Below, one piece after another: positions 3,499 to 25,181 of a stretch of 35,857 bases of DNA. The stretch comes from a virus, in the IMG/VR virus record IMGVR_UViG_3300048833_000084, positions 1-35,857 of that record; one strand, written 5' to 3'. The notes below the pieces were generated by a model. That model was not told where the DNA came from. It did no database searches and saw only the letters and a program-made list of their open reading frames with translations. Position numbers and translations under genes: made by a program. Position 1 is the stretch's first letter; the number at the start of each line of letters is the position of its first letter.

Positions 3499-3720
3499 CT
3501 AGTTTGTAGCACGACTCTGTTTGTAAAGTCTCATCTTTGGTTTGTTGTATTGTTCGCTGAACCATGTCTCAACCCTTTCACCTTTCTTGAACTCCTGTAG
3601 GGAGTCTATTACTTCTTTGTTGCCTAATTCATCAATGATTTCATAGCTATATAGTTTGTATTCGGTGCCGTCTGCTTTCATTCTGGTTTGGTAGAATGTT
3701 CGGCGGTTAATTTGCTTCAT
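3499..3720 (-). CDS. Unknown small basic protein
   Basis: A 73-residue basic protein (MKQINRRTFYQTRMKADG, ending PKMRLYKQSRATN). Alternating aromatic and charged residues (YKLYSYEIIDELGN) suggest a small beta structure. It overlaps the methylase gene end by 14 nt. No family recognised. A nucleic-acid-binding role would fit the charge but is only a guess. Confidence 0.55.
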   Translation of the reverse strand: MKQINRRTFYQTRMKADGTEYKLYSYEIIDELGNKEVIDSLQEFKKGERVETWFSEQYNKPKMRLYKQSRATN

Positions 3721-4357
3721 GGGCCGACTCCATTATGTGCAGACCTATTTCGGGCAACACATAATTCCTTAATACCTGACGCTTATTCCTTAATTTAATT
3801 CCCGTTAAATCCAGCCCGTGTAAATCGGTAAGTTCTGGTATTTGGGCTTCTCTGATTATCGCTTTACGTTGTGCGTCTTTACTTGCACTTCTATTCATCG
3901 TGCCTATCTGCGTATAGTTAATGTCTTTTGGCGGTATATCAAAGTTCGCCCAATAGTAATGCCTACCAACTACCTGAGGCTTGTATATCGGCTCATAGTA
4001 GCTCTTTACGTTCTCTACGACATACTTTCCCTTAAAGAAGTGTTTTAGGAATATAATTTCTTGCCACAGCCTATAGTCTGGGTATCTGAATATTCCTTGC
4101 CCTTTTAGGAAGTGGTTAGTAACTGAGTGTGTTGGGCAGGGTGGGCTTGACCAAATAAAGTCAAACTCCATATGGTGCTTCAACAAATATTCGTGTGCGT
4201 CAGCTACAATTACCGTGTCTTGGGGGAAGAAGTACTTGTATACATCTGCTATATCTTGTACGTTTTCTACTGCTGTTACCTCATATCTGTCGTCCCAAAG
4301 TTTACGGTTTCCGCCGATACCAGCGTATAGATTTAATACTTTAATCTTCTTCATCAT
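3707..4357 (-). CDS. DNA (cytosine-5) methyltransferase, compact phage type
   Basis: A 216-residue C5-cytosine methyltransferase. Motif I is LNLYAGIGG at residues 8-16 (SAM binding), motif IV SPPCPTHS has the catalytic Cys74, and motif VI is VVENVKSYYEP (ENV at 115-117). At 216 residues it is far shorter than most bacterial enzymes (about 330-420), so the target-recognition domain is small or absent; such compact forms are common in phages. It methylates cytosines in DNA, probably to evade host restriction or alter expression. No cognate endonuclease is visible. Its start overlaps the preceding HNH gene by 17 nt. Confidence 0.88.
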   Translation of the reverse strand: MMKKIKVLNLYAGIGGNRKLWDDRYEVTAVENVQDIADVYKYFFPQDTVIVADAHEYLLKHHMEFDFIWSSPPCPTHSVTNHFLKGQGIFRYPDYRLWQEIIFLKHFFKGKYVVENVKSYYEPIYKPQVVGRHYYWANFDIPPKDINYTQIGTMNRSASKDAQRKAIIREAQIPELTDLHGLDLTGIKLRNKRQVLRNYVLPEIGLHIMESAHEAN

Positions 4358-6605: not shown

Positions 6606-7378
6606 TTCACTTCCAATACTTCGTGTTCGTAAGTTTTCCACTCGCCACCATTCCAGTGATGGATGCGTAAACCTTTTACTTTGTTACCGGCTGCCTCAAC
6701 TATAGATGCGTAGAATGATAACTGTTTCCAGTAAGTGTCTAGCTTTTCTTTCTTTAGTTCGCCGTTAGTTTTGAAGTCCTCTATATAGTAGACGTCTTTT
6801 TCTTTAACTACTCTATCTATTTGGCCGGCGTATTTACGGGCATGGTCTACTACTAGGGCTTCGTATAGAGCATCTTCTTTTCTGCCTTTATAGAAACTCA
6901 GTACGGCCTGTTTAATTACTGGGTGGTCATGTAGATGGTATTCTTTATCAAATACATCTGCATACTTCTCAAACTTTCCGTATAGTTCTAGTGCTGCGTG
7001 AATTGCAGTACCTAGTCCGTTAGATATATCTCTTTTCATATTCCACATCTTTACTATATCTTCGGCGGGGACTTTAAACTTCTTGGCCATCTTCTCGGTG
7101 ATACCAGTCATGTCAAACTCTGGTTCTCCTAATTGGGCGTAAACACTACCAGATAAATACTTGTCGCCTTGTTCGTTAGTGTACATATGTGCGACATCAT
7201 CATAGTAAACCTCGCCACCTACCCAAGCTTTTAATAGTTTCCTGTTGCCGTTCTTGAAGTTAATGGGCGTTTCGGCGTATTGATTATAGAGAAGTTCTAT
7301 CTGCTCTCTATCCTCTGGCTCGCCCGTAATCTCTATGAAGCCATATTGCTGTGTTGGTACGTGTGCTTTAATCTTCAT
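6602..7378 (-). CDS. PD-(D/E)XK superfamily exonuclease (RecB/Cas4-like)
   Basis: A 258-residue nuclease. The conserved blocks are NGLGTAIHAALELYG (GxxxH), EALVVDHARKYAGQIDRVV (acidic metal ligand in GQIDRV), YYIEDFKTNG (the D-x-K catalytic pair) and KLDTYWKQLSFYAS (QxxxY). This order matches RecB-like and phage recombination exonucleases that resect DNA ends. The first 100 residues are a separate N-terminal region with VYYDDVAHMYTNEQG. With the SSB-like gene it forms a probable DNA repair/recombination set. No single-strand annealing protein is recognised beside it. Confidence 0.85.
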   Translation of the reverse strand: MKIKAHVPTQQYGFIEITGEPEDREQIELLYNQYAETPINFKNGNRKLLKAWVGGEVYYDDVAHMYTNEQGDKYLSGSVYAQLGEPEFDMTGITEKMAKKFKVPAEDIVKMWNMKRDISNGLGTAIHAALELYGKFEKYADVFDKEYHLHDHPVIKQAVLSFYKGRKEDALYEALVVDHARKYAGQIDRVVKEKDVYYIEDFKTNGELKKEKLDTYWKQLSFYASIVEAAGNKVKGLRIHHWNGGEWKTYEHEVLEVK

Positions 7379-7557
7379 TTTCGCTTACTAATCTTTCCAC
7401 CTTTGGCGCCAGCTTTTCTAGCTGCTTCTGGGTTGTTATAGAATCCACCAGTTCTGCCGTTCTTTCCACCAACAGAACCTATCTTTGCATAAAAATCAGT
7501 TCCATACTTCTTTATCATTGTTTGTTTGGCCTTTAAAGCACCTTCTGGTGTTTGCAT
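7375..7557 (-). CDS. Small KGG-like basic protein
   Basis: A 60-residue very basic, glycine-rich protein with GSVGGKNGRTGGFYNNPE followed by AARKAGAKGGKISKRK. The Gly-Gly-Lys repeats resemble the KGG motif of stress-induced bacterial proteins. The NPEAA segment recurs in the gene at 4788-4982. The start overlaps the TAA of the upstream gene (TAATG). It may bind DNA or RNA through its charge; no function is known. Confidence 0.6.
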   Translation of the reverse strand: MQTPEGALKAKQTMIKKYGTDFYAKIGSVGGKNGRTGGFYNNPEAARKAGAKGGKISKRK

Positions 7558-7709
7558 TATCTATTCTCCTTAACTATGGTAGTCATTATTTGTTCTAGTT
7601 CTTTACGCTGTATCTTTAGCTGTTCCAGGCTATCTAGTAGTCTGTCTTCTAATATATCCATGTGGCGTTGCTGACTAGCTAGCGCCCGCATAGTATCAAT
7701 GGTTATCAT
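7557..7709 (-). CDS. 50-residue coiled-coil protein
   Basis: A small gene not seen by length-limited gene finding. ATG at 7709 overlaps the upstream TGA as ATGA, and TAA at 7559-7557 overlaps the next ATG as TAATG. The protein is one long helix with heptad spacing (MDILEDRLLDSLEQLKIQR, then KELEQIMTTIVKENR), probably an oligomerising coiled coil. The perfect fit between neighbours is the main support. Function unknown. Confidence 0.7.
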   Translation of the reverse strand: MITIDTMRALASQQRHMDILEDRLLDSLEQLKIQRKELEQIMTTIVKENR

Positions 7710-7957
7710 TTATGCCTCAATTCGTAGTACAAAGACAACCACTCTCTAAGATTGTCTGTATTTGGGTGGCAGTCTAGGTCGCAGTCACAAGGTAATAGAT
7801 TTACTGTGTCTATTTCTTCCATTAACTTGTCTATTATAGAATCGTTAATATCTTCTTGTGCTTGGGCGTAATTATCTGAAGCTTCTTGTATTGGGTCGGT
7901 GTAGTTATTCATAAAGTCCATAAAGTCACCCATAGCTTGATTTAGTGTTTTACTCAT
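7706..7957 (-). CDS. Acidic protein with Cys-rich tail
   Basis: An 83-residue strongly acidic protein. The N-terminal two thirds is helical (MGDFMDFMNNYTDPIQEAS), and the tail carries LLPCDCDLDCHPNTDNL, four potential metal ligands. A comparable Cys/His tail is in 2630-2941. ATGA overlap with the next gene and a four-base overlap with the previous one show coupling. No family recognised. Confidence 0.6.
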   Translation of the reverse strand: MSKTLNQAMGDFMDFMNNYTDPIQEASDNYAQAQEDINDSIIDKLMEEIDTVNLLPCDCDLDCHPNTDNLREWLSLYYELRHK

Positions 7958-8214
7958 AGTGATTCCCCATCCTCTCTCATAGCATCTCTGATTGCTTCGG
8001 CTTTTTCATATTGTTCTTCGGTGCCAAATACATCATCATTTACTTGTTCTTGATATCTCAACCAGTTCTCTATCTCAGTAGAAAACATCTGTATATCATC
8101 TAGGTTCTCTCTAGCTATTGCGTCTAGTAAAGCATCCCCATAAGGTGTAGAAGTAGCTTCCTCGGCTAATTCCCTTGCTCTATCATAGATTAAGTCATTA
8201 CTATTATTACTCAT
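7954..8214 (-). CDS. First gene of the early operon, acidic helical protein
   Basis: About 86 residues, acidic and helical (YDRARELAEEATSTPYGDAL, EEQYEKAEAIRDAMRED). ATG at 8214 or GTG at 8220 could start it: AAAGGATAA lies 4 nt before the GTG and 10 nt before the ATG. It is the first gene after the promoter and terminator-like leader at 8305-8393, the position where phages often place anti-host or regulatory proteins. No motif recognised. Confidence 0.6.
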   Translation of the reverse strand: MSNNSNDLIYDRARELAEEATSTPYGDALLDAIARENLDDIQMFSTEIENWLRYQEQVNDDVFGTEEQYEKAEAIRDAMREDGESL

Positions 8215-8287
8215 TGTCACTTATCCTTTCATTTATTTAACTACTCTAATACTACAGTGTTTGTTAGAGATTGTCAATAAGAATAAG

Positions 8288-8303
8288 TGTGATATATGTC
8301 ACA
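8288..8303. promoter_or_regulatory. Palindromic operator, TGTGA-N6-TCACA (copy 1)
   Basis: TGTGATATATGTCACA has perfect TGTGA/TCACA arms, the layout bound by CRP/FNR-family dimers. It lies just after the leader terminator and about 75 nt before the first early gene. Three more copies or near copies are at 9197, 9220 and 10603. Confidence 0.5.
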
Positions 8304-8304
8304 T

Positions 8305-8332
8305 AAAAGAAAAACCTCCTTGTTACAGGAGG
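8305..8332 (-). terminator. Leader terminator / attenuator before the early operon
   Basis: Leftward: CCTCCT (8332-8327), loop GTAACA, AGGAGG (8320-8315), then TTTTTCTTTT (8314-8305). This is a textbook intrinsic terminator. It sits only about 30-55 nt after the predicted start of transcription and before all early genes, so it would block the operon unless read through or antiterminated. It also ends any RNA coming from 8330-8760. Confidence 0.85.
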
Positions 8333-8338
8333 TCCATC

Positions 8339-8360
8339 TTAACTCGTCTTGGTAATTACT
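8339..8360. repeat. Direct repeat R1 (TTAACTCGTC...GGTAAT)
   Basis: R1 reads TTAACTCGTCTTGGTAATTA (first 20 of 22 bases). R2 at 8402-8422 differs by two substitutions and one base less. R1 lies in the transcribed leader and R2 upstream of the -35 box, so the pair brackets the early promoter. Candidate operator or antitermination sites. Confidence 0.55.
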
Positions 8361-8366
8361 AGATTT

Positions 8367-8393
8367 ATTATAGCACATCGTGTATAGTGTCAA
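8367..8393 (-). promoter_or_regulatory. Early leftward promoter
   Basis: TTGACA (8393-8388) and TATAAT (8372-8367), both perfect consensus boxes, with a short 15-nt spacer. Transcription would start near 8360 and meet the terminator hairpin at 8332. Short spacing often lowers activity or makes a promoter dependent on an activator. Confidence 0.75.
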
Positions 8394-8401
8394 GTAATGA
8401 C

Positions 8402-8422
8402 TTAACTCGTCAGGGTAATACT
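8402..8422. repeat. Direct repeat R2 (TTAACTCGTC...GGTAAT)
   Basis: TTAACTCGTCAGGGTAATAC plus T, the partner of R1 at 8339-8360, separated by 41 nt. It lies 9 nt upstream of the early -35 box. The end of R2 overlaps an ACTGGG that resembles the late leaders, but no -10 box precedes it, so I do not call a rightward promoter here. Confidence 0.55.
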
Positions 8423-8757
8423 GGGTAAAGGTATTGCAAAAGCACCTTATAGTCACATCAACCAGCATTTACAGGATTGGTTATCCTGCCTAAACGGATA
8501 GCTATCGTAGCAGTACGATTTCTAGGTAGAGTAGGTTCACAGATTGGTTCGCAGCCCAACACTAAACAAAACTGCTTACAAGTGAACACTAGCCCATATC
8601 TCGGTAACATAACCCTACTTACTAAGTGCTGAACTTATAAAGAATCCGATTAGGGTAGCAGAAACCAACTGCGAGGATTACTTGGTAAGGACTATACCGT
8701 TATACAACATACGCCCCAACCGCAAGTAGTAGGGTAGAGAGGGATTATGCCAAAATA
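8423..8757 (-). ncRNA. Possible structured leftward RNA upstream of the early promoter
   Basis: This 335-nt part of the 8221-8774 gap has no credible coding frame. It holds two adjacent perfect hairpins: CAGGAT/ATCCTG at 8472-8488 (5-nt loop) and ATCGTA/TACGAT at 8504-8519 (4-nt loop). A long-range stem pairs GTTCAC (8535-8540) with GTGAAC (8582-8587). A TATAAT box at 8771-8766 (weak TTGGAG -35 at 8793-8788, 16-nt spacer) could start it, and the terminator at 8332-8305 would end it, giving about 450 nt. It does not fold as a tRNA that I can find. An RNA gene is plausible, not shown. Confidence 0.4.
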
Positions 8758-8759
8758 TA

Positions 8760-8768
8760 TGCTACATT
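8760..8768 (+). promoter_or_regulatory. Extended -10 box before the 47-aa gene
   Basis: TGCTACATT (TG-n-TACATT) ends seven bases before the ATG at 8775, so transcription would start at or next to the AUG. It overlaps the TATAAT proposed for the leftward RNA. The DNA is AT-rich, so confidence is low. Confidence 0.35.
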
Positions 8769-8774
8769 ATAAGC

Positions 8775-8918
8775 ATGAACACCATACCTCCAAATACAGA
8801 CCTCACCAAACTATTCAATAAAGTAATAAAAGTACCAGTAATACCCGAACATATTAAATGGAACGAATATAAAGACGATAAAGAAATTAAAAAGTATATG
8901 CTAAAATCTAAATATTAG
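8775..8918 (+). CDS. 47-residue basic protein, possible leaderless gene
   Basis: A short rightward frame (MNTIPPNTDLTKLFNKVIK, ending DDKEIKKYMLKSKY) between a promoter-like extended -10 box and a terminator-like hairpin at 9009-9040. There is no ribosome site; if transcription starts seven bases after the -10 box the message is leaderless. Composition is protein-like, rich in Lys, Ile, Asn and Pro. It sits in the control region between two leftward operons, a usual place for a regulator or anti-host peptide. Function unknown. Confidence 0.4.
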   Translation: MNTIPPNTDLTKLFNKVIKVPVIPEHIKWNEYKDDKEIKKYMLKSKY

Positions 8919-9008
8919 GACACCACCGACCTACGCACCTCCTACATTAGATACAACACTCAAATACCTTCCTAGACGAATATATTTAATCTATAAAACA
9001 CAAACGAG

Positions 9009-9040
9009 GAACCCTTTGGTGGAGGGGTTCTATTCATTTT
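9009..9040 (+). terminator. Terminator-like hairpin after the 47-aa gene
   Basis: GAACCC (9009-9014) and GGGTTC (9025-9030) form a six-pair stem with a 10-nt loop, followed by TATTCATTTT. The tail is weaker than a pure T-run, so this is a moderate call. It lies about 90 nt past the 47-aa frame. Confidence 0.5.
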
Positions 9041-9141
9041 AAGGGTAGCCCCCCACTTTGACCTTTAAAAAAGTTGTCGTGGTCCTTTTTCTTCCTCCGC
9101 CCACTGAACCAACTCTCGCTCAAGCTCTCAGGCGACTCAGG

Positions 9142-9159
9142 CGTATGTGCGCGCGCGTG
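9142..9159. other. Alternating CG/TG tract (possible Z-DNA)
   Basis: Eighteen bases of unbroken pyrimidine-purine alternation centred on GCGCGCGCG, in otherwise AT-rich DNA. Such tracts can flip to Z-DNA under negative supercoiling. A role is unproven. Confidence 0.4.
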
Positions 9160-9196
9160 ATTGATTTGGAGCGAATATTTCAAGGGAGTGCTAAAA

Positions 9197-9212
9197 TGTG
9201 ACCAAAATCACA
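9197..9212. promoter_or_regulatory. Palindromic operator, TGTGA-N6-TCACA (copy 2)
   Basis: TGTGACCAAAATCACA with perfect arms. Its centre is 23 bp from copy 3, close to two helical turns, so two dimers could bind on one face of the DNA. Located downstream of the leftward operon ending at 9263. Confidence 0.5.
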
Positions 9213-9219
9213 CCAAAAT

Positions 9220-9235
9220 AGTGATATTCATCACA
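9220..9235. promoter_or_regulatory. Palindromic operator, AGTGA-N6-TCACA (copy 3)
   Basis: AGTGATATTCATCACA; the inner palindrome GTGAT/ATCAC is perfect. Second of a closely spaced pair. Confidence 0.5.
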
Positions 9236-9262
9236 ATTCCTTATAACTAACATAGAGCCTAT

Positions 9263-9547
9263 CTAACGGCTTTTATATATAGAACGATTTAACATACTAC
9301 TATTATATAAAACACCGCCAAATAAGCTTAAAATGGCTATAAATAACATAATTAATGCTGTACTAAAGCTTATACCGCTAGTTATGGCAATAGTAAACAG
9401 TATATTAAATATAAACATCATTATAAGTAGATACACCACTAGAGCAGCAATTAACGCCGCCAAATACCCTATTATCTTAATGACTGGATATATAAATAGA
9501 TAACAGAGTATACCTAAGCTAATCAGATATACTCTATATTTATTCAT
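9263..9547 (-). CDS. Three-helix integral membrane protein
   Basis: A 94-residue, very hydrophobic protein with about three membrane helices (residues 7-28, 30-55 and 60-82: YLISLGILCYLFIYPV, LAALIAALVVYLLIMMFIF, ALIMLFIAILSLFGG) and a basic tail. It overlaps the upstream small membrane gene by ATGA. Two of the CCGCCAAATA words fall inside it. It could be an immunity, exclusion or holin-like protein; nothing decides this. Confidence 0.7.
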   Translation of the reverse strand: MNKYRVYLISLGILCYLFIYPVIKIIGYLAALIAALVVYLLIMMFIFNILFTIAITSGISFSTALIMLFIAILSLFGGVLYNSSMLNRSIYKSR

Positions 9548-9714
9548 TTCAAGCTCTGTACTAGTGTTTTAAACTCTGAACAGTTATAGACACACTCCAG
9601 ACCATTAACGCTGTTAGAATAGCTGTAATTGCTACCATTGTTTATTACTAGCCATGTTACAAGTACTATAATAACGCTTAATAGTACAATGCTAGCTATA
9701 TCGTATTTATTCAC
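9544..9714 (-). CDS. 56-residue single-pass membrane protein (GTG start)
   Basis: A short gene with a GTG start at 9714, GGAG eight bases upstream, and a TGA overlapping the next ATG. Residues about 7-25 (ASIVLLSVIIVLVTWLVI) form one membrane helix; the rest (GLECVYNCSEFKTLVQ) carries two Cys and would lie outside the membrane. Coupled to both neighbours, which is strong support for translation. Function unknown. Confidence 0.7.
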   Translation of the reverse strand: MNKYDIASIVLLSVIIVLVTWLVINNGSNYSYSNSVNGLECVYNCSEFKTLVQSLK

Positions 9715-9716
9715 AA

Positions 9717-9905
9717 TTAAAACTCCTTTAATTCTAGTGCATTATCTGGTGTTAAGTGTACATTATACACGCTCACTAAATCCTCAATAGCGTGTTTTAA
9801 AGCGTTCATATCTCCGTCTGATACATGATGGCCATGAGCTATTTGCTCACAAGCTACTGTTACACTTTTAACTGTTGAATTGTATTGTTTATAGTCCTTG
9901 CTCAT
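9717..9905 (-). CDS. Small unknown protein with His-rich centre
   Basis: A 62-residue soluble protein (ACEQIAHGHHVSDGDMNALK). AGGAG precedes the ATG. It is the second gene of a leftward four-gene operon. The HGHH cluster could bind a metal, but no family is recognised. Confidence 0.6.
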   Translation of the reverse strand: MSKDYKQYNSTVKSVTVACEQIAHGHHVSDGDMNALKHAIEDLVSVYNVHLTPDNALELKEF

Positions 9906-9944
9906 CTTATTTACTCCTATTGTTATTTAATTATTTGGGCGAAT

Positions 9945-10208
9945 TTAAAGTGCTCTTATACTCTTAATTCTGCCTGCTTTAGTTAGTTCATGCTCTACTT
10001 CTACCACTTCAGGCATTTTTGAATATATCTTGTTTGGTATCTCGCCATAACTGTCACTCAAGTCATTAGATGTTTTTCTAGCCTCTAGCGTCCAGTCACC
10101 ATTACTGTCAAATTCTCTAACAGTCAATAGCCAGTTTGGATTACCATTTACACTGCCATTTGCTCGCTCACACTTTTGTACTTGTGCATATATTTTATTA
10201 TTGCTCAT
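9945..10208 (-). CDS. Unknown beta-rich small protein
   Basis: An 87-residue protein with alternating strands (IYAQVQKCERANG, NWLLTVREFDSNGDWTLEA). First gene of the leftward operon that ends with two membrane proteins. Its likely promoter lies 317 nt upstream, leaving a long leader. No domain recognised. Confidence 0.6.
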   Translation of the reverse strand: MSNNKIYAQVQKCERANGSVNGNPNWLLTVREFDSNGDWTLEARKTSNDLSDSYGEIPNKIYSKMPEVVEVEHELTKAGRIKSIRAL

Positions 10209-10524
10209 AATTTCCCGCCTATCTTATTAATTTATTATTATAATGATTGACTAACGCTAACACGGTACGTTATATAGCTATTTTTACTTTTAACCCACAG
10301 TTTACACAGTTGCCTAATAAATAGGTCTTATAGTGTCGATTGTCGTTATATATGCTTTACGCTCTCGTGCTAGGGATAGCCAACCATTTAATCCCACCAG
10401 TCAATCAAGCTAATTATAGCGGTTATATCTACCTTGTAATGTAGCTGCTATGTTCACTTAATTGATTAGTAAGTATCTCAATTTGTTTATGTTCTGTAAG
10501 TTATATTGCTAACTTACTAACTAC
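10209..10524 (-). other. Long untranslated leader of the 9263-10208 operon
   Basis: Between the promoter at 10525-10553 and the first gene start there are about 310 transcribed bases without a credible frame. I see AT-rich sequence with some GC-richer patches (around 10350-10400) but no clear terminator or known riboswitch. It may be regulatory; no specific structure is claimed. Confidence 0.4.
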
Positions 10525-10553
10525 AGTATAGCAAACTCTACAGACTATGTCAA
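10525..10553 (-). promoter_or_regulatory. Leftward sigma70-type promoter
   Basis: TTGACA (10553-10548), 17-nt spacer, TATACT (10530-10525): the same boxes and spacing as the lysis promoter at 1549-1577. Drives the operon that ends with small membrane proteins. Confidence 0.85.
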
Positions 10554-10602
10554 TACACAACATAGTACTATTATAGTGTCTAAAGTGTTAATTCCGCCAA
10601 AT

Positions 10603-16842: not shown

Positions 16843-16914
16843 ATGGCAACTACAGGAGCTTTTGGTTCTGGTAACGTAAACGAAGGTGTAACAGCTGGAA
16901 ACGTATTCAGACCT
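16843..16914 (+). CDS. Major capsid protein, exon 1
   Basis: Twenty-four codons (MATTGAFGSGNVNEG, ending GNVFRP), then an in-frame TAA at 16915. The sequence matches the start of phage coat proteins, and the expected continuation (IWSKETLMFVKSN) appears in the second exon at 17625. Joining the exons gives FRP-NIWSKETL and a protein of about 291 residues. The 5' exon ends GACCT, which pairs with GGGTC in the intron, so splicing after base 16914 is well supported. Without splicing the product would be a 24-residue stub. Confidence 0.85.
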
Positions 16915-17042
16915 TAATAATATAGGGTCAAAATGTATGGAGTTTACCACTCCAATTTGTACATTGACAATTTACTCTAATCAACGGGGAAAGTCTGGAA
17001 GCAGATAACCCCCAAGAAGGTTTCGTCTTACAGCCTACACTA

Positions 17043-17051
17043 TGGTATAAT
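17043..17051 (+). promoter_or_regulatory. Extended -10 promoter inside the intron
   Basis: TGGTATAAT, a perfect TG-n-TATAAT, ends seven bases before the ATG at 17058. Transcription would start at or beside the AUG, giving a leaderless message. Its first base overlaps the proposed P7 strand. Confidence 0.6.
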
Positions 17052-17057
17052 GATAGT

Positions 17058-17510
17058 ATGATAACTAAAGAATACATAGCAGGGTTGATAGACGGCGAAG
17101 GATACATTGGTATTCTGCCAGTTAGAAGCAAAGAGGTAAAAACCCCAAGTTTTGAGCCAGTCATTAAAATAGGTATGGCTGGGGCTAATTCACTCATGGC
17201 GCTAGAGATGATTCGTGAAGTTTACGGAGGCATCATAGAAAACAGAGGGAATAAAACCATTAAAAACAGACAGGTTTTCACCTACGTTCTAAAGGGAAAG
17301 AAGAATATACTGAAGTTAATTAACGACATAAACCCACACCTAATCGTTAAAAGACCACAGGGCGCAATAATGAAAATGTTTTGCGAATTACCGATGACAC
17401 ATACGAGGCATAAGAACTTTAGCCAAGAAGTAGTATCTAAAAAGATATGGTGCTACAAATCACTAAAGGAACTTAAAAAGCCTGACCACTTGCAACGACT
17501 AAGTGAGTAA
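17058..17510 (+). CDS. LAGLIDADG homing endonuclease, intron-encoded
   Basis: A 150-residue protein with one LAGLIDADG motif at the N terminus (YIAGLIDGEGYIGI, residues 6-19), where the Asp and Glu act in metal binding. Single-motif members work as homodimers and cut a long, mostly unmatched site, here probably the intronless coat gene. The rest (MIREVYGGIIENRGNKTIKN, LINDINPHLIVKRPQGAIM) follows the usual family pattern. The gene lies in the loop between the 5' and 3' halves of the intron core, so it does not disturb folding. It has its own promoter and no ribosome site. Confidence 0.92.
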   Translation: MITKEYIAGLIDGEGYIGILPVRSKEVKTPSFEPVIKIGMAGANSLMALEMIREVYGGIIENRGNKTIKNRQVFTYVLKGKKNILKLINDINPHLIVKRPQGAIMKMFCELPMTHTRHKNFSQEVVSKKIWCYKSLKELKKPDHLQRLSE

Positions 17511-17624
17511 ACGGGAGAAATCCCGAAGCGATAGTCTGCTCTGCATATATAACAAAAGAAAATGCAGAGGGAGTGCCGAAGCGCCTCCCCGCCTACATAA
17601 GTAGGTCACAAAAGTAACAGAAGG

Positions 17625-18428
17625 AACATTTGGTCAAAAGAAACTTTGATGTTCGTAAAGAGCAACTTGGTTCTTTTGCCACTATTCAAGCACTATGACC
17701 GTGATGTTAAAAGTTCAGGACAGACTGTTGAAATACCTAACGTATCAGCAATCTCAGCGAACCTAAAAGCAGAAAACACAGTTGTAACGCTTAACTACAA
17801 CACCGAAACTAAAACAACAATAACAATTAACCGTCACTACGAAAGTTCATTCTTAGTAGAGGACATCCTTGCAACTCAATCAGCTTACGACGTACGTTCT
17901 GATTACACAAAAGCTGCTGGTTACGCAATCGCTGAAAAAGTAGATGCTGACATCGCTGCTGTTGTTACAACTGCATGGAAAACCGCTAGCAAAACTATCG
18001 GTACTTACGGTACAGCAATCACAGACGACCTAGTTCTATCTGTAAACCGCTACCTAAGTGAAAACAAAGCACCACGAACTGGCCGTAAAATGGTTGTTCA
18101 CCCTAAAGGCGAAAAAGAATTACTTGCAATTGACAAGTTCGTTCGTTACGACGCATTAGGAACAGGCGACGCTATCAAAAATGGTAAGCTTGGAACTATC
18201 TACGGCGCAGAAGTATTTATGTCACAAAACCTTGTGTACCTAGATACAGCTACTGATGAGTACAACTCTCTATTCTTCCACGAAGAAGCAGCAGCTATCG
18301 CTATGCAGAGTTCTCCACGAACTCAGACACAATACAAGCAAGAGTATCTCGGGTGGTTAGTGACTGTCGATGTCCTTTATGGCGTCACAACACTACGCTC
18401 AGGCTTTGGTTACGTGATAAAACACTAG
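17625..18428 (+). CDS. Major capsid protein, exon 2
   Basis: About 267 codons that continue exon 1. Conserved blocks include GQTVEIPNVSAISANLKAE, TTITINRHYESSFLVEDILA, RSDYTKAAGYAIAEKVDADI and RKMVVHPKGEKELL, as in P22-type/HK97-fold coat proteins. The mature shell would be about 291 residues, with no obvious separate protease gene in the window. Regular, unbiased codon use and a strong terminator after the stop fit a highly expressed structural gene. An internal TTG/ATG at 17646 and 17649 could be mistaken for the start, but upstream codons AAC ATT TGG extend the family match. Confidence 0.9.
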   Translation, partial: NIWSKETLMFVKSNLVLLPLFKHYDRDVKSSGQTVEIPNVSAISANLKAENTVVTLNYNTETKTTITINRHYESSFLVEDILATQSAYDVRSDYTKAAGYAIAEKVDADIAAVVTTAWKTASKTIGTYGTAITDDLVLSVNRYLSENKAPRTGRKMVVHPKGEKELLAIDKFVRYDALGTGDAIKNGKLGTIYGAEVFMSQNLVYLDTATDEYNSLFFHEEAAAIAMQSSPRTQTQYKQEYLGWLVTVDVLYGVTTLRSGFGYVIKH

Positions 18429-18449
18429 TAACTAATAGTACTCAAATTA

Positions 18450-18477
18450 AGAGGGTTAACGTGACCCTCTTTTTTTA
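18450..18477 (+). terminator. Rho-independent terminator after the coat gene
   Basis: AGAGGGT (18450-18456), seven-base loop, ACCCTCT (18464-18470), then a run of seven T. A strong intrinsic terminator that closes the head module. Confidence 0.92.
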
Positions 18478-18488: not shown

Positions 18489-18514
18489 ACAGTACAACGT
18501 GTTATCATGTGTGT

Positions 18515-19006
18515 ATGAAACGAATATACCCCACTAATATAAAGATGCCGATACTAGTAGATGACGATAACTATGAAGACCTAATGCAGTATAACTGGAA
18601 TCTTAGCCCTATAGGGTATGCGAGAAGAAGTGTTTGGGCGGACGGCAAGAATAGTGTTGAATATATGCACAGACGTATTATGGATGCTCCTAGGGGTTCT
18701 GATGTAGACCACAAAGACCTAAATCGTATCAACAATCAAAAGTCCAACCTGAGGCTTGCTACTAGGTCAGAGAATATGGCGAATATGAGAAAGATTAAGA
18801 ACCCTACGGCTCGCTCTAAATATAAGGGCGTTAGTTATCTTGACCGCCCAAAACTAAAGAAGAAGTGGATGGCTTACATTAAACTAGATTACAAGACCTA
18901 TTACCTGGGGTATTCTGAGACCGAGAATGAGGCGGCACACCTATACAACCAATTCGCCGAACAGATATATGGAACTTATGCACAGCTTAACGATATCAAA
19001 TCTTGA
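18515..19006 (+). CDS. HNH homing endonuclease with AP2 domain (free-standing)
   Basis: A protein of about 163 residues. HNH core: RGSDVDHKDLNRINNQKSN followed by LRLATRSENMAN. AP2-like C terminus: SKYKGVSYLDRPKLKKKW, YYLGYSETENEAAHLYN and the ending YAQLNDI. It shares the family and layout of the gene at 5842-6306. It sits between the coat terminator and the glycan cassette, a typical landing place for a mobile endonuclease. A GTG at 18509 is an alternative start. No ribosome site is seen. Confidence 0.88.
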   Translation: MKRIYPTNIKMPILVDDDNYEDLMQYNWNLSPIGYARRSVWADGKNSVEYMHRRIMDAPRGSDVDHKDLNRINNQKSNLRLATRSENMANMRKIKNPTARSKYKGVSYLDRPKLKKKWMAYIKLDYKTYYLGYSETENEAAHLYNQFAEQIYGTYAQLNDIKS

Positions 19007-19030
19007 CACTGTACTAATACTGGCTACAAT
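19003..19030 (+). promoter_or_regulatory. Sigma70-type promoter of the glycan cassette
   Basis: TTGACA (19003-19008), 16-nt spacer, TACAAT (19025-19030), overlapping the stop codon of the endonuclease gene. A good AAGGAG site and the ATG at 19056 follow. Confidence 0.75.
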
Positions 19031-19055: not shown

Positions 19056-19367
19056 ATGACAACACTAGATAGATACAATAAATTAGCAGATGAACTCGGT
19101 ATAACAGAAGAAATGAACGTACCGCCAGTAGCAAGACTTGGATTTGCCAGAGAACAGGCTACCCAAATGAAATCTATTGTTAATCGCCTATTATTTGACC
19201 TAACTATGGCTTATGCAGCTATGGAAAAGGCTAAAGACGAGAATACAGTTGCAGCTTATAAAGATAATATCTCAAAGCACGAAAGAGAACTCCGCCAAAC
19301 TAGAGACGGTCTTGTATTGACTAACGAACTAGTAACACTACTAGAAGAAATAGTAGCAGAGGACTAA
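19056..19367 (+). CDS. Unknown coiled-coil protein opening the glycan cassette
   Basis: A 103-residue helical protein. Residues 60-100 have coiled-coil spacing (AYAAMEKAKDENTVAAYKDN, KHERELRQTRDGLVLTNE). AAGGAG precedes the ATG, and the next gene starts right after its stop. It is the first gene after a strong promoter, so it is expressed with the glycosyltransferases. It may be a virion protein or a glycosylation partner; no evidence chooses. Confidence 0.65.
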   Translation: MTTLDRYNKLADELGITEEMNVPPVARLGFAREQATQMKSIVNRLLFDLTMAYAAMEKAKDENTVAAYKDNISKHERELRQTRDGLVLTNELVTLLEEIVAED

Positions 19368-20174
19368 ATGGACAAGCTCGCAGTTATTCTGCCGAGCAGA
19401 GGGTTAATGTTCAGTGAGACATTACAAGAATTGCTCAGAGAACTAAAGACCCTACCGTTTGAGTGGGAAATATATTGGGCGCACGAAGAATCGCTACCAG
19501 ACTGCTTTAATAAGCCAACTAATAGAGCATTAAAAGACCAGAACAACTTTGCATTTCTATTCGTGGAAGATGACATGATTATTCCTAAAGGGATACTTAT
19601 GGAGATGTTTGAAGAACGCTACCCAGTAGTAGCACTAGATTATCCGTTTAGGCAGAACGGCGACTCTACCTGTTTACATGACCCAGACGGTATGGCTTTC
19701 TGGACTGGTACTGGATTCCTGTTGGTAGCTCGCCAAGTATTAGAAAACTTCCAGAAACCTATCTGGCGCACCGATACTACTTATGAACAGTTTATAGATA
19801 CGGATACGCTACACTGGTGGCCACGAAAACTTACTAGAGTATTCTACGGATTACACGACCTGAGGTTCGGCCTAATATTACACTCACAAGAAATGCCAGT
19901 AAAACCAATGAATAGAACAGCTGGACAGAGGAAGTTGGTCAAGCTTGGTCAAACTGGCGTGAATGACGGCAAGCACGAAATAGAACTACTAACAGTAGTA
20001 GGTAGAGATGCTGTATCGGGAAAGGTAGATATGGAAAACATTGACTTGTTAAGAGGTGCATTAAATAGAGTTAAGTACGTCAAGTATTGGGAAGATATAC
20101 CGCCGTTTATCAGCTATGACGAGAACGAACAGCCATATCTCAATGATGGGCGAGATTTCAAGAGGGTAAGATGA
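19368..20174 (+). CDS. Glycosyltransferase-like protein (GT-A type)
   Basis: A 268-residue protein beginning LAVILPSRGLMFSETLQELL, a nucleotide-sugar-binding first strand. FLFVEDDMIIPKGILMEMF gives the DxD-like EDD motif that binds metal and sugar nucleotide. GMAFWTGTGFLLVARQVLE is the acceptor-side loop typical of phage glycosyltransferases. It is closely related in layout to the next gene (VEDDM, GTG.LL, GQRKLV.LG), so the pair arose by duplication. The likely role is adding sugar to a virion protein, cell-surface polymer or DNA base. Confidence 0.8.
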   Translation: MDKLAVILPSRGLMFSETLQELLRELKTLPFEWEIYWAHEESLPDCFNKPTNRALKDQNNFAFLFVEDDMIIPKGILMEMFEERYPVVALDYPFRQNGDSTCLHDPDGMAFWTGTGFLLVARQVLENFQKPIWRTDTTYEQFIDTDTLHWWPRKLTRVFYGLHDLRFGLILHSQEMPVKPMNRTAGQRKLVKLGQTGVNDGKHEIELLTVVGRDAVSGKVDMENIDLLRGALNRVKYVKYWEDIPPFISYDENEQPYLNDGRDFKRVR

Positions 20175-20983
20175 AAATTGGAGTTATATTCCCAAGTAGG
20201 GGACTAGTGTTCAGTAGAACCGCCCAAGAACTACTAGACAACTTAAAAGATTATGATTATGAGATATTCTTTGCACACGGCAAGCCAATACCAGAGTGCT
20301 TTGAATCACCACTACAAATAGCATTATTTGACGCCAACATCACCCACATCTGGATAGTAGAAGATGACATGGTGCTACCTAAAGACATACTCAAACAACT
20401 ACTAGCTGTGGATAAGGCTGTGGTTACTGCTGATTATCCAATAACTAAAGAGGGCAGAGGTTCTGTGTTCCGAGATGCAGATAAAAGAGTAATGTTCTGC
20501 GGAACTGGCTGTCTACTAATCAAGAGAGAGGTATTCAATGAACTCAAATCCCCCTACTTCAGAACCGACACCAAATGGAACGTCAAAAACTACGGTAAAT
20601 ACATCAAATTCACAGCCGTACATAACGAATCAGGTGATGGTTACGGCCTACACGATATTACCTTCTGTTTTGAACTATTAGGATTAAATATACCGATACA
20701 CGTTATCCCGACTAAGCTAGGACAACGCAAGCTAATAGCACTAGGTAAATCTGGCACTAACAATGGCGCCCACCAAATAGAGAAGTGGACAGATATAATC
20801 AAGGACAAGAGATTAAAAGAGATACAATCCTACCCAGTAGAAAAGTCTGGCGATTTAGTAGAAGTCAGGTCTGGTACTGAGATATTGAACGTATCTAAGG
20901 CTCACGCTGAAAAACTAATTAAGGCTGGCAAGGCTGAAGCTGTGCCTAAAAGAAAGTCCTATATAGACTGGGGCAAGAAATGA
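20171..20983 (+). CDS. Glycosyltransferase-like protein with C-terminal add-on
   Basis: A 270-residue paralog of the previous gene: IGVIFPSRGLVFSRTAQELL, IWIVEDDMVLPKDILKQLL, FCGTGCLLIKREVF, GQRKLIALGKSGTNNGAHQI. The EDD motif is kept. The last 55 residues (VEVRSGTEILNVSKAHAEKL, IKAGKAEAVPKRKSYI) form a small extra domain of the kind found in short phage structural and accessory proteins, absent from the neighbour. The gene overlaps the previous one by 4 nt. Separate substrate or acceptor specificity from the first copy is plausible. Confidence 0.78.
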   Translation: MKIGVIFPSRGLVFSRTAQELLDNLKDYDYEIFFAHGKPIPECFESPLQIALFDANITHIWIVEDDMVLPKDILKQLLAVDKAVVTADYPITKEGRGSVFRDADKRVMFCGTGCLLIKREVFNELKSPYFRTDTKWNVKNYGKYIKFTAVHNESGDGYGLHDITFCFELLGLNIPIHVIPTKLGQRKLIALGKSGTNNGAHQIEKWTDIIKDKRLKEIQSYPVEKSGDLVEVRSGTEILNVSKAHAEKLIKAGKAEAVPKRKSYIDWGKK

Positions 20984-21699
20984 AACTACTGATTTGTCTC
21001 ATCACTTTTAACAGGCTGAACTACACCAAGAAAACACTAGGGTACTTATGGGCTACTATGACCGAGCCTTACTTCATTATTGTAGTAGACAACAACTCTA
21101 CTGATGGCACCAAAGAATACTTACAGAACATATTAAACAGAGGCAAGATAGATGAAGTTATATTTAATGACGAAAACTACTATCCTGGCAAAGCCACTAA
21201 TATAGGTTGGACTGAGGGGCTTAAAAACTATGACGCCACACACCTAATGCGACTAGACAACGATATGGAACTAAGAGAGGGTTGGTATGATTCCGCTATA
21301 GGCTATTTTAAGGCTATTCCTGAGCTTGGACAGCTTGGACTGGACAATGAGGCCATTGAGGACCCTAGGGCCGCTCTAAGAGCCTTAGAAGTCAATGGGA
21401 AGACAGTCAACCCTTGGCCTGGTTGTGTTGGTGGTCCCTGTATAGTTAAGCGTAAGATTTGGGATGAGGGAGTTCGCTGGCCTGAGAGTAGATGGGATGA
21501 CGGTGAGAAATCTAAATTACAAGAGGACTCAAGATTCAGTCGCCTAATAATGGACAGAGGATACTACGTTGGACACATGACAGATAACCTAGCAAGAACC
21601 TTTGCTAATGAGAGTAATTGGTCCGATTACCCTAGTTACTACAAGAAAACTATGAGCGAGCGTGGTTACGACGACAGACTAGAAAAGGCAGGATTATGA
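20980..21699 (+). CDS. Family 2 glycosyltransferase
   Basis: A 239-residue GT2-type enzyme. CLITFNRLNYTKKTLGYL and FIIVVDNNSTDGTKEYL form the nucleotide-binding half, and THLMRLDNDMELREGWYDSA carries the DND metal motif. A Trp-rich loop (WPGCVGGPCIVKRKIW) follows, and QEDSRFSRLIMDRGYYV may hold the catalytic base. It overlaps its neighbours by 4 nt each side. It transfers sugar from a nucleotide donor; acceptor unknown. Confidence 0.88.
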   Translation: MKLLICLITFNRLNYTKKTLGYLWATMTEPYFIIVVDNNSTDGTKEYLQNILNRGKIDEVIFNDENYYPGKATNIGWTEGLKNYDATHLMRLDNDMELREGWYDSAIGYFKAIPELGQLGLDNEAIEDPRAALRALEVNGKTVNPWPGCVGGPCIVKRKIWDEGVRWPESRWDDGEKSKLQEDSRFSRLIMDRGYYVGHMTDNLARTFANESNWSDYPSYYKKTMSERGYDDRLEKAGL

Positions 21700-22352
21700 C
21701 AGGAGTAATACTAGCAGGGGGGAATGGAACCAGACTTCGCCCATTGACTAACGTGGCCAATAAACACCTATTGCCAGTATATGATAAGCCAATGATTTAC
21801 TACCCAATACAGACCTTAATAGACTATGGCTGTGATGAGATAGTAATAGTCTCTGGTGGTGAGAACATAGGTGGATTTGCTGAACTCTTAAAGGACGGCT
21901 CTGAGTGGGGCGTGAGATTTACATATAGAGTGCAGAACGGTGCTGATGGGGTAGCTGGTGCATTATTGTGCGCTGAAGGGCTAGTAGACGGCTCATTCCC
22001 AGTAATACTTGGGGATAACTACTTATCAGAGAGTCCAAAGAAATCATTTCAGCCCATGGTGTTCCTCAAGGAAGTAGAGGACCCAGAAAGATTCGGTGTC
22101 TACCAAGAAGGCCAAATAGTAGAGAAGCCCGCCAACCCAACCTCTAATAAAGCTGTTATAGGTTTCTATATATATGATGATGATGTATTCAATTATATAA
22201 GAACATTAAATCCATCAGATAGAGGGGAGCTAGAGATAACAGACGTTAATAACTGGTACTTGAAACAGGGGTGCAGAGCAGTAACTTATGATGGCTACTG
22301 GTCAGACATGGGGACATTTAATTCGTTAAGAGAGGTAGCTGCAAGACAATGA
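21696..22352 (+). CDS. Sugar-1-phosphate nucleotidyltransferase (RmlA-like)
   Basis: A 218-residue enzyme. The signature GGNGTRLRPLTNVANKHLLP (residues 8-27) binds the nucleotide; KPMIYYPIQTLIDYG, PVILGDNYLSES, GQIVEKPANPTSN and YDGYWSDMGT match glucose-1-phosphate thymidylyltransferase. It lacks about 70 residues of the usual 290, mainly the C-terminal helical part used for tetramer and allosteric control. It makes an activated NDP-sugar, supplying donors for the adjacent glycosyltransferases and dehydrogenase. The exact nucleotide and sugar are not decided. Confidence 0.9.
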   Translation: MTGVILAGGNGTRLRPLTNVANKHLLPVYDKPMIYYPIQTLIDYGCDEIVIVSGGENIGGFAELLKDGSEWGVRFTYRVQNGADGVAGALLCAEGLVDGSFPVILGDNYLSESPKKSFQPMVFLKEVEDPERFGVYQEGQIVEKPANPTSNKAVIGFYIYDDDVFNYIRTLNPSDRGELEITDVNNWYLKQGCRAVTYDGYWSDMGTFNSLREVAARQ

Positions 22353-23026
22353 TAAGTATTTTATTACCCAGCAGGGGCAGACCCGACAACATTGTGCGAC
22401 TCACTAATTCTATCTTTGAGACGGCTTCATACCCATCCGAAATAGAAATCATAATACGCCTAGATGAAGATGACCCAAAGCTAAACGAGTATATGGACAG
22501 CCCGCCCAAACAGACTACTTACTTTACAGGACCCAGAGTGGTGCTTAGTGAGTTATGGAACGAGTGCTACAAGAGGGCTAAAGGGGATATACTGATGCAC
22601 GCTGGAGATGATATAGTTTTCCGCACTAAAGAATGGGATAGAATACTTCAAGAAAAGTTTGATGAGTTTGAAGATAACATAGTATTTGTGTTTGGAGATG
22701 ACGGCTCACCCCATAATGGGACTTTTGGTACTCATGGTTTTATCCACAGGAAGTGGGCAGAGACAGTAGGATATTTCGTGCCACCTTATTTTAGCTCTGA
22801 TTATAACGACACTTGGTTAAATGAAGTAGCGCAGAAAATTAACCGCCATGTTCACATACCTATCCTAACCGAACATATGCACCCAGATTTTGGCAAGGGA
22901 CCACTAGACCAGACACACAAAGACAGAATAGTCCGCCATAAAAGAGATAATGTTGCGGAAATGTATAATAGCTTTCAATTAGAGAGAGCCGATAACGCAT
23001 CAAAACTAAGAAAGGAAATGAAATGA
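22349..23026 (+). CDS. Glycosyltransferase-like protein
   Basis: A 225-residue GT-A-like protein: ISILLPSRGRPDNIVRLTNS, IIIRLDEDDPKLNEYM, GDILMHAGDDIVFRTKEWD. GDD is the probable metal motif. The tail has several His (RHVHIPILTEHMHPDFGKG), reminiscent of phage glycosyltransferases that end HxHP. It overlaps the RmlA-like gene by ATGA. It shares the ILPSRG start with the two tandem enzymes but is more distant. Confidence 0.8.
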   Translation: MISILLPSRGRPDNIVRLTNSIFETASYPSEIEIIIRLDEDDPKLNEYMDSPPKQTTYFTGPRVVLSELWNECYKRAKGDILMHAGDDIVFRTKEWDRILQEKFDEFEDNIVFVFGDDGSPHNGTFGTHGFIHRKWAETVGYFVPPYFSSDYNDTWLNEVAQKINRHVHIPILTEHMHPDFGKGPLDQTHKDRIVRHKRDNVAEMYNSFQLERADNASKLRKEMK

Positions 23027-24237
23027 ACGTAGGTGTAGTTGGAATGGGAAAACTGGGTCTACCAGTGGCTTTAGCAATAGAGTCTAAGGGGCATGAGGTT
23101 ATGGGTTATGATATTAGCGACGCCCCATACGGATATATTGAGAGAGGAAGAATACCCTACCAAGAGGAGGGCTTACAGCCACTACTAGATAGCAACAACA
23201 TAGAGATGACTAAGGACTTGGGAAAGCTAGTTGCAGAGAACGATATTATATTTGTACCAGTCCAGACGCCACATCAACCAGAATACGAGGGAGTTACACC
23301 ACTACCAGAGACTAGAGATGATTTTGACTATGCCTTTATTGGGGCGGCGTTAGGAGCATTAGCTGGAGAGTGCGCCAAACTAGATGAGAAACGAACCATA
23401 GCAGTTATAAGCACTTGTCTGCCTGGAACTTATGAAAGACGCCTAAAAGAAATACTTAATGATAATATGGACTATGTTTATACTCCTCAGTTCATAGCTA
23501 TGGGAACTGTATTACAAGACTACTTGCATCCAGAGTTCAACCTAATTGGGGTTGAGAGTGAAACTGCCGCCGACCAACTAGAGGAGTTCTATAAAACAAT
23601 AAATGATGCGCCTGTTATACGAACCGACATAACTACTGCTGAAGGTATTAAGGTTTCTTATAATACATGGATAACCGCCAAAACAGTTATAGCTAATTTA
23701 TGGGGCGAGATAGCAGAAAAGACGGGTATGAACTTTGATGACATAAAAAGAGCTTGGGACGTATCTGATAGAAGGTTGTGGAGTCCTAGATATACTGATG
23801 CTGGTATGAGTGACGGAGGTGGATGCCACCCAAGAGACAATATCGCTATGAGCTGGCTGGCTGATGAGGTTGGATTATCTCACAACTTCTTTGAGGACTT
23901 AATGTACGCTAGAGAAGATTATGAGATGTGGCATGGTAATGTTGCTGCTGAATACGCTCAAATGAACGAACTACCCCTTGTAATACTGGGTAGAGCATTT
24001 AAGCCTGAGACAAATATAGAAACGGGTAGCCCATCTCGCCTAATGAGTTCGCTAACGCCAATAGAACACCTACACGTTGAGGATGTAGAAGAACTAGTCC
24101 CGGCCACCTATTTCATAGGAACTAGACACGACAGGTACAAGGACTATAAGTTTCCTGCTGGCTCAATCGTAATAGACCCCTTTGGAATAATCCCTGAACA
24201 AGAGGGTGTCGAGTTAGTAAAACTAGGTAGAAGATAG
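23023..24237 (+). CDS. UDP-glucose/GDP-mannose-type 6-dehydrogenase
   Basis: A 404-residue NAD-dependent nucleotide-sugar dehydrogenase. GVVGMGKLGLPVALAIESKG is the NAD-binding Rossmann motif; STCLPGTYERRL matches the STVxPGT block; EGIKVSYNTWITAKTV carries Lys210 and Asn214; GGGCHPRDN carries the catalytic Cys268. These enzymes oxidise C6 of an NDP-hexose to a uronic acid. A C-terminal NAD-binding region ends the protein. Paired with the RmlA-like enzyme, it suggests a modified, perhaps acidic, sugar. It overlaps the previous gene by 4 nt and ends the cassette. Confidence 0.9.
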   Translation: MNVGVVGMGKLGLPVALAIESKGHEVMGYDISDAPYGYIERGRIPYQEEGLQPLLDSNNIEMTKDLGKLVAENDIIFVPVQTPHQPEYEGVTPLPETRDDFDYAFIGAALGALAGECAKLDEKRTIAVISTCLPGTYERRLKEILNDNMDYVYTPQFIAMGTVLQDYLHPEFNLIGVESETAADQLEEFYKTINDAPVIRTDITTAEGIKVSYNTWITAKTVIANLWGEIAEKTGMNFDDIKRAWDVSDRRLWSPRYTDAGMSDGGGCHPRDNIAMSWLADEVGLSHNFFEDLMYAREDYEMWHGNVAAEYAQMNELPLVILGRAFKPETNIETGSPSRLMSSLTPIEHLHVEDVEELVPATYFIGTRHDRYKDYKFPAGSIVIDPFGIIPEQEGVELVKLGRR

Positions 24238-24269: not shown

Positions 24270-25181
24270 ATGGATAACGACAAGATACAAGCGTATAAAG
24301 ATAAGCAAAAAGCCGATTCCGAGAAACTTGAACACAAGCAAGAACTAGAACAGACCATTAACGCTACCAAAGATAGTGCTAATGCGATTATTAAAAGTAT
24401 TGCTGGAGAAGCACAGAGAACACGCCAACACACCCAGAATGTTAAGGTGGCGAATCCGAGCAAAGACTATACCAGTGATATAGCTGATGCAGTTAAGGCG
24501 ATTAAATCTGTTAAGCTAGAAAACAACATTGATTTCCAGCCTTTGATTATAGCCTTGAACGATGTCAAGAAGGAAGTATCTAAAGTTGCCAAAGACATCA
24601 AGATACCAGAGAACGAAAAAGTAGAAGAAGTATCTGTTAATAACCTAAAAGACTACACTTCTAAGATAGACGCCGTTATCAAGGCGGTACAGAGCATAGA
24701 GCTTTCACCACAGATTAACGTACAGTCACCGGAAGTAAATGTAAGCACCCCAGACATATCTAAAGAAATCGCCAAAATTACTAAAGCTATTAAAGATATA
24801 AAACTACCAGAACTACCAGAACAAGATGACACCGAACTACAAAATGCAGTCAAGGATGTAACTAACGCTATTAACGGTTTAGAGTTCCCGGTACCAAACT
24901 ATGTATTGCCGTTCAAAGATGAGAACGATGCGGCAGTACAGGTAAGGCTAACGAGTGGCGGTGCTGTACCCGTAGAAGCGACCCTAACCCCTACACCTAT
25001 CTTCGACATCAGAAACACAGAAGAAGATGCAACGTATAAATATTTTGGCTTTGAAGAACGTGGTGGCACTAACTGGCGTATTATGCGTAAGACTTTGGCA
25101 ACAAGTGCCTATCTATACGCTACTGGTACGTCAGACTATGCAACTAACTGGACTGGCAAGGCAGGTTTAACCTATGCGTAA
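24270..25181 (+). CDS. Virion protein with long coiled coil
   Basis: A 303-residue protein. Residues 1-200 are helical, with repeated VxxAIKxIxL units (SDIADAVKAIKSVKLEN, SKIDAVIKAVQSIELSP, SKEIAKITKAIKDIKLPE) about 45-60 residues apart, as in trimeric fibre or head-decoration stalks. The C-terminal 100 residues are beta-rich (AAVQVRLTSGGAVPVEATLT) and resemble the end of phage tail or neck proteins. It opens the tail module under promoter B. Role inferred from layout. Confidence 0.65.
   Translation: MDNDKIQAYKDKQKADSEKLEHKQELEQTINATKDSANAIIKSIAGEAQRTRQHTQNVKVANPSKDYTSDIADAVKAIKSVKLENNIDFQPLIIALNDVKKEVSKVAKDIKIPENEKVEEVSVNNLKDYTSKIDAVIKAVQSIELSPQINVQSPEVNVSTPDISKEIAKITKAIKDIKLPELPEQDDTELQNAVKDVTNAINGLEFPVPNYVLPFKDENDAAVQVRLTSGGAVPVEATLTPTPIFDIRNTEEDATYKYFGFEERGGTNWRIMRKTLATSAYLYATGTSDYATNWTGKAGLTYA

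Follow-up and report, generated by a model that had tools for sequence, protein, structure and literature searches.

Few phages have been reported to glycosylate their virions. Mycobacteriophage Che8 and its relatives, according to Freeman et al. 2023 as cited in PMC11256854 and PMC12619734, encode glycosyltransferases thought to modify their own capsid; Maravista, a Che8 relative, carries its glycosyltransferase genes close to the 3' genome end (PMC11256854). Large DNA viruses glycosylate autonomously, as described for Vp54 of PBCV-1 and for the mimivirus fibres (PMC4691112), by using their own nucleotide-sugar enzymes and glycosyltransferases for capsid or fibres. Here a glycosyltransferase cassette was analysed in IMG/VR record IMGVR_UViG_3300048833_000084, classed as linear and derived from an uncultured virus of bacteria, whose whole 35,857-base sequence is called the window. 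Six genes, denoted GT1, GT2, GT3, NT, GT4 and UGD, span positions 19368-24237, between the coat gene and a structural-type gene, called gene 24270 from its start (Table 1). The cassette probably glycosylates the particle of the phage itself, with the head as the most likely target (major capsid protein and/or the head-proximal product of gene 24270) and with sugars that are exchangeable between relatives. This is the best supported reading, based on the placement beside the capsid gene, on co-exchange with the head genes and on the fold of GT1 and GT2. Gene content, GT1/GT2 fold, placement, sugar-gene variability and co-exchange come from the data presented here; enzyme activity, acceptor, timing and benefit are inferred.

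Glycosyltransferase core and sugar genes among relatives

Relatives were collected by scanning IMG/VR with a capsid-protein alignment, which returned 80 loci, numbered with an L prefix. As this query contains no glycosyltransferase, genes adjoining its matches were not selected for. A second scan, using divergent capsid proteins, contributed loci L087 and L099; the genes of the latter were annotated by eye, not by profile. Families were assigned with Pfam, PHROG and NCBIfam profiles. No near DNA relatives of the window were found among isolated phages, and the dehydrogenase as a single-protein query retrieved no relative from IMG/VR.

Linkage was counted on the 54 capsid-gene loci having at least 3 kb downstream, some of which are near-duplicates. 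GT1/GT2 are present in 51 of them, starting 297-1760 nt 3' of the capsid gene; GT3 occurs in 46, GT4 in 16, UGD in two and NT in none. Judged from these sequences, GT1-GT3 are a fixed core, and the sugar genes downstream of GT3 differ between phages. The original prediction had not told these two halves apart, the conserved glycosyltransferase one and the variable nucleotide-sugar one.

The variable part is diverse. Downstream of GT3, L084 carries an FnlA-like UDP-N-acetylglucosamine 4,6-dehydratase/5-epimerase (1.5e-104), a WecB scoring over the cut-off and an adjoining reductase; the near-identical L057 copy of this reductase is RmlD-like, and the three genes make up a UDP-N-acetyl-L-fucosamine-type set. 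L074 has a dTDP-glucose-4,6-dehydratase-like enzyme and a UDP-galactopyranose mutase; in L051 a dehydratase-like enzyme lies beside a C-methyltransferase, genes that L083 and L005 carry in similar form, and L055 combines a DegT aminotransferase with UGD. Most scores are under the equivalog cut-offs, and for this reason exact substrates are not claimed. The cassettes of L057 and L084, as well as those of L069 and L071, are nearly identical, differing by one or two genes gained or lost as a block. The L084 cassette also contains a methyltransferase and a 2-oxoglutarate (2OG)-Fe(II) oxygenase (L084:15384-16124), the latter absent from L057; in mimivirus, collagen-like proteins are modified by a hydroxylase and glycosyltransferase pair (PMC4691112). 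In L099, which is devoid of GT1-GT3, the equivalent interval holds two other glycosyltransferase-like open reading frames (ORFs) and a nitroreductase-like one.

A check of starts and stops confirmed the predicted coordinates of the abutting or overlapping genes, all on the plus strand: consecutive cassette genes share five 4-nt ATGA overlaps, at 20171, 20980, 21696, 22349 and 23023, and 32 nt separate the end of UGD from gene 24270. The prediction of four glycosyltransferases was likewise borne out, by Pfam for GT3 and GT4 and by predicted GT-A fold for GT1 and GT2. The latter two gave no convincing match in Pfam, PHROG or NCBIfam, a GT1 profile gave no sequence match to PDB chains, and GT1, GT2 and GT3 found no match in 50,697 phage records. 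AlphaFold2 models of GT1 and GT2, built on alignments of 51 and 42 sequences, both had 2c0n (STIV A197) as best PDB fold, with E values of 3e-7 and 8.5e-8; further neighbours were mimivirus R699, human LH3, COLGALT1 and, lower, SpsA. Protein glycosyltransferases are prominent in the list of fold matches, in which nucleotidyltransferases of the same fold are present too. Residues E67-D68-D69 of GT1 are invariant in 51 relatives, as is D-N-D (93-95) of GT3 in 35. We found no characterised member of the GT1/GT2 family.

NT retains the active-site motifs GGxGTRL, LGDN, EKP, ELEITD and W-D-GT in alignment with 3hl3. It matches positions 2-233 of the 286 in the rmlA profile TIGR01207, below the cut-off (199.7 vs 360.65 bits), and is without the RmlA C-terminal part; it is therefore named RmlA-like only. 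UGD, predicted as a UDP-glucose/GDP-mannose-type dehydrogenase, does carry the NAD-binding and central domains (PF03721, PF00984), and its catalytic residues C268, K210, N214 and D272 are invariant; it scores below the NCBIfam cut-off for nucleotide-diphosphate-sugar dehydrogenases. The glutamates of the cellular PEFLRE motif serve oxidation and thioester hydrolysis, as worked out on the streptococcal enzyme. Both are replaced in UGD, where the window reads TPQFIAMG, and xPxxIAMG is found in all six aligned dehydrogenases of a phage subfamily comprising the window, L021, L055, L145, L149 and Bellamy. In the same subfamily GGGCHPRDN (the window version) or GGACHPRDN replaces GGSCFPKD. We found no characterised member of this altered subfamily. 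Since it is without the two conserved glutamates, the oxidised (uronate) nature of the activated, probably oxidised sugar originally proposed is not secure. Neither a sugar phosphomutase nor a kinase was seen in the cassette, which was thus overstated as complete; sugar phosphates would have to come from the host.

The 103-aa ORF that abuts GT1 lies within the stretch originally assigned to the cassette, but it is not an evident sugar gene. Short genes resembling it, as judged by eye, follow the capsid gene in L075, L079 and L099. It was rejected as a part of the glycan system and is probably structural, because relatives without GT1-GT3 carry such genes.

Exchange with the head genes and the probable acceptor of the sugars

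Comparison with L005 locates the cassette within an exchanged block. The DNA of the two phages is 97-100% identical over window positions 6748-10578, and 98.5% identical from 24967 as far as the L005 contig reaches; between these blocks identity is about 70-80% where alignable. The diverged stretch holds the terminase, portal, capsid and glycosyltransferase genes as well as the 5' part of gene 24270 (~230 codons), and its GT1-GT3 proteins are 60-68% identical. The left break with the window is also present in L004, from another sample record. Similarly, L083 and L084 are 93.7% identical in DNA onward from inside gene 24270 (about codon 235-248), and their capsid proteins only 64% identical. 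In both pairs gene 24270 is broken at a corresponding place; the N-terminal ~230 residues of its product follow the head/glycan module in their variation, and the C-terminus goes with the tail module. The contrast between a diverged head-plus-cassette block and a near-identical tail side indicates that head genes and cassette travel together, apart from the tail; this is seen in two cases, and the right window/L005 break in one contig.

Matched homologs of gene 24270 range from 283 to 869 aa, some being cut by contig ends. At the corresponding place in L040 (7435-10851) lies a 1139-aa ORF that contains a collagen-like stretch of 15 Gly-X-Y units. Co-occurrence of cassette and gene 24270 was considered as a pointer to the acceptor and discarded: both are missing in L075, L077 and L087, which is suggestive, and the pattern is broken by L079.

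In the proposed mechanism, NT would activate a sugar-1-phosphate taken from the host, and the UGD-like enzyme would convert the nucleotide sugar. The conserved core GT1-GT3 would act in the cytoplasm late in infection, starting a glycan on a virion protein and extending it, and GT4 would add a variable unit. With GT1-GT3 kept beside the capsid gene and the nucleotide-sugar genes exchanged, related phages would bear different coats.

Virion glycosylation, the reading favoured in the original prediction, gained comparative support from the glycosyltransferase core beside the coat gene, the head co-exchange, the lack of export machinery and the GT1/GT2 folds. Several points weigh against it. The TM-scores of GT1 and GT2 to PDB folds are moderate (0.47-0.65), so that the models give fold, not substrate. 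The dehydrogenase active site is altered. Of the isolate relatives nearest to GT4, that of Streptomyces phage Gilson belongs to a DNA-metabolism cluster and that of HTVC008M to one without a capsid gene, which is a mild counter-argument. L079 has the capsid gene and a 24270 homolog with no glycosyltransferase there, and L075, L077 and L087 are without the cassette, which is thus dispensable. Finally, adjacency alone may explain why head genes and cassette are exchanged together.

The sugars could instead be destined for the envelope glycans of the infected cell, leading to superinfection exclusion or to a change in host surface adhesion, the latter as proposed for groundwater Patescibacteriota phages. 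Nucleotide-sugar enzymes of this kind serve the synthesis of O-antigen, capsule and teichuronic acid, and 46 nucleotide-sugar auxiliary metabolic genes of groundwater Patescibacteriota phages have been read as modifying host lipopolysaccharide (PMC12911398). We regard this as unlikely, given that the cassette lies in the structural module, next to the capsid gene in 51 of the 54 relatives, and is exchanged with head rather than tail genes; moreover, no flippase, polymerase or other polytopic protein was detected, by hydropathy only, among 445 ORFs from the capsid gene to the tail module. Glycan on tail or receptor-binding proteins, rather than on the head, would fit the position of the cassette directly 5' of gene 24270 and the tail module, the long variable C-termini of 24270 homologs and the Gly-X-Y run of L040. 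It appears very unlikely, since the tail-side DNA of window and L005 is near-identical (98.5%) and GT1-GT3 are diverged (60-68%), which argues that cassette and tail are inherited separately.

Modification of DNA, by glycosylation of hydroxylated bases as in T4 or by a glucuronate-type base modification as in Bacillus phage SP-15, appears very unlikely. The SP-15 hypermodification cluster does contain a UDP-glucose dehydrogenase and a UTP-glucose-1-phosphate uridylyltransferase, GT4-related genes of Streptomyces phages lie near a deoxynucleoside monophosphate kinase, and the window has a C5-cytosine methylase-like ORF (3707-4357), partial in that its match stops after the first third of the family profile. 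Against this stand the position beside the capsid gene and searches of the window and 20 relatives, several of these records being fragments. A thymidylate-synthase-type hydroxymethylase (PF00303) was found in 0/21, with a control matched in 9 of 14 genomes; Tet_JBP (PF12851) was also found in 0/21, its control being silent everywhere, and a C5 methylase in only three of the 21. The L005 record contains an intact C5-cytosine methylase of 350 aa.

Glycosylation of the virion remains our preferred interpretation. As to the host, an alignment of GT1 run against 84,980 species genomes matched only three contigs in two metagenome-assembled genomes (MAGs): a Candidatus Saccharibacteria MAG holds two of them, and the third is from a MAG placed in the same class. 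These look like free phage contigs, and a binning error is therefore possible; they are a hint that the host belongs to the ultra-small Saccharibacteria. Two other lines of host evidence were set aside. CRISPR-spacer-like matches to Saccharimonadia are many and short, most falling at the start of NT, in a conserved nucleotide-binding motif; NT ancestry is too close to call (best 51% in Saccharimonadia vs 47-48% in plasmids and phages). Only tentatively, then, do we propose a clade of podovirus-like Saccharibacteria phages with a coat-sugar locus, in which three capsid-locked glycosyltransferases and an exchangeable nucleotide-sugar module are swapped as a block with the head genes.

A clade in which almost all members retain capsid-linked glycosyltransferases, with donor-sugar genes that vary, would allow tests of what a phage sugar coat is for, the pairs window/L005 and L083/L084 providing natural material, with near-identical DNA beyond the break and different head-plus-cassette blocks. 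An alternative reading is thereby offered for the Patescibacteriota-phage genes interpreted as host-surface modifiers. If true, the coat-sugar locus would be a phage counterpart of bacterial O-antigen and capsule loci, giving related phages different glycan coats.

Capsid gene and upstream elements

The features of the region are collected in Table 1. The capsid gene is interrupted by 710 nt, likely a self-splicing intron; an Rfam search of the intervening sequence returned no intron family even at E values up to 1. The joined exons encode 291 aa, which align collinearly with the coat proteins of L002 and L003, both uninterrupted; exon 2 is 95% identical to L002. L042 has a similar insertion at the identical codon, and the capsid genes of L043, L058 and L060 also appear interrupted near it.

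The HNH-AP2 gene is probably an insertion between terminator and promoter, judging from L002, where it is absent and the two elements are adjacent. The promoter that the original prediction assigned to the cassette was found as a site with 11 of 12 consensus bases, the top score among promoter-like sites in the 10 kb scanned; the scan shows no excess of such sites (15 observed vs 21 expected), and conservation across relatives is only partial. A looser form precedes GT1 in 13 of 70 loci vs 3.3 expected, some of these loci being near-duplicates.

Other insertions were noted. In L002 (8207-8866) an HNH-type gene lies within the 3' end of GT3, the end of which is duplicated. The 757-aa terminase large subunit of L083 (3109-5382) looks split by an in-frame, intein-like insertion, and is overlapped by another ORF, HNH-like by eye.

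Table 1. Features of the window from the capsid gene to gene 24270
Feature	Position	Strand	Evidence or remark
Major capsid protein, exon 1	16843..16914	+	MATTGAFGSGNVNEGVTAGNVFRP; joins exon 2 in frame
Intervening sequence in capsid gene, 710 nt	16915..17624	+	LAGLIDADG-type ORF at 17058-17510
Major capsid protein, exon 2	17625..18428	+	PF19821 2.5e-10, phrog_267 1.5e-41
Intrinsic-terminator-like hairpin 3' of capsid gene	18449..18471	+	similar hairpin there in L002
HNH-AP2 homing-type endonuclease gene	18509..19006	+	PF13392 4e-8, phrog_99 1e-30
Promoter-like TTGACA-N16-TACAAT	19003..19030	+	11/12 consensus bases; recurs in L002
Small helical protein, 103 aa	19056..19367	+	no family match (Pfam, PHROG)
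GT1, GT-A-fold glycosyltransferase, core	19368..20174	+	AlphaFold2 mean pLDDT 90.1; fold 2c0n
GT2, GT-A-fold glycosyltransferase paralogous to GT1, core	20171..20983	+	AlphaFold2 mean pLDDT 92.3; fold 2c0n
GT3, family-2-type glycosyltransferase, core	20980..21699	+	PF00535 9e-12
NT, RmlA-like sugar-1-phosphate nucleotidyltransferase	21696..22352	+	PF00483 6e-48
GT4, accessory glycosyltransferase	22349..23026	+	PF00535 1e-6, phrog_14945 4e-40
UGD-like nucleotide-sugar dehydrogenase	23023..24237	+	PF03721 1e-23, PF00984 1e-11, phrog_9148 2e-65
Gene 24270, structural-type protein	24270..25181	+	module break ~24967 vs L005

Comparison with known systems

The SP-15 cluster (PMC5977210) resembles the cassette in combining a UDP-glucose dehydrogenase, a sugar-1-phosphate uridylyltransferase and glycosyltransferases. 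It differs in its canonical dehydrogenase, with NPEFLAEG and GGSCFPKD, in a proposed hydroxymethyl-dUMP synthase and in adjoining DNA-metabolism genes. Pelagibacter phage HTVC008M and Synechococcus phage Bellamy encode a related UGD (35% and 33%) together with glycosyltransferases and a 2OG oxygenase or methyltransferase; these lie, however, in clusters of carbamoyltransferase/NadE type, and the stretch shown contains no capsid gene. STIV A197 is also a viral enzyme of GT-A fold, but it belongs to an archaeal virus and shares 14-19% identity with GT1/GT2 over the aligned part. The large DNA viruses, whose mimivirus R699 is matched in fold by the GT1/GT2 models, as are collagen glycosyltransferases, differ in having eukaryotic hosts and genomes of hundreds of kb.

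A narrow search of open-access text found no description of a capsid-locked glycosyltransferase core with exchangeable sugar modules. Phage virion glycosylation as such is already known, and the new part would be the combination predicted here: unlike the mycobacteriophages, an uncultured podovirus-like clade has a fixed glycosyltransferase core coupled to the capsid gene and accompanied by nucleotide-sugar genes that are exchangeable.

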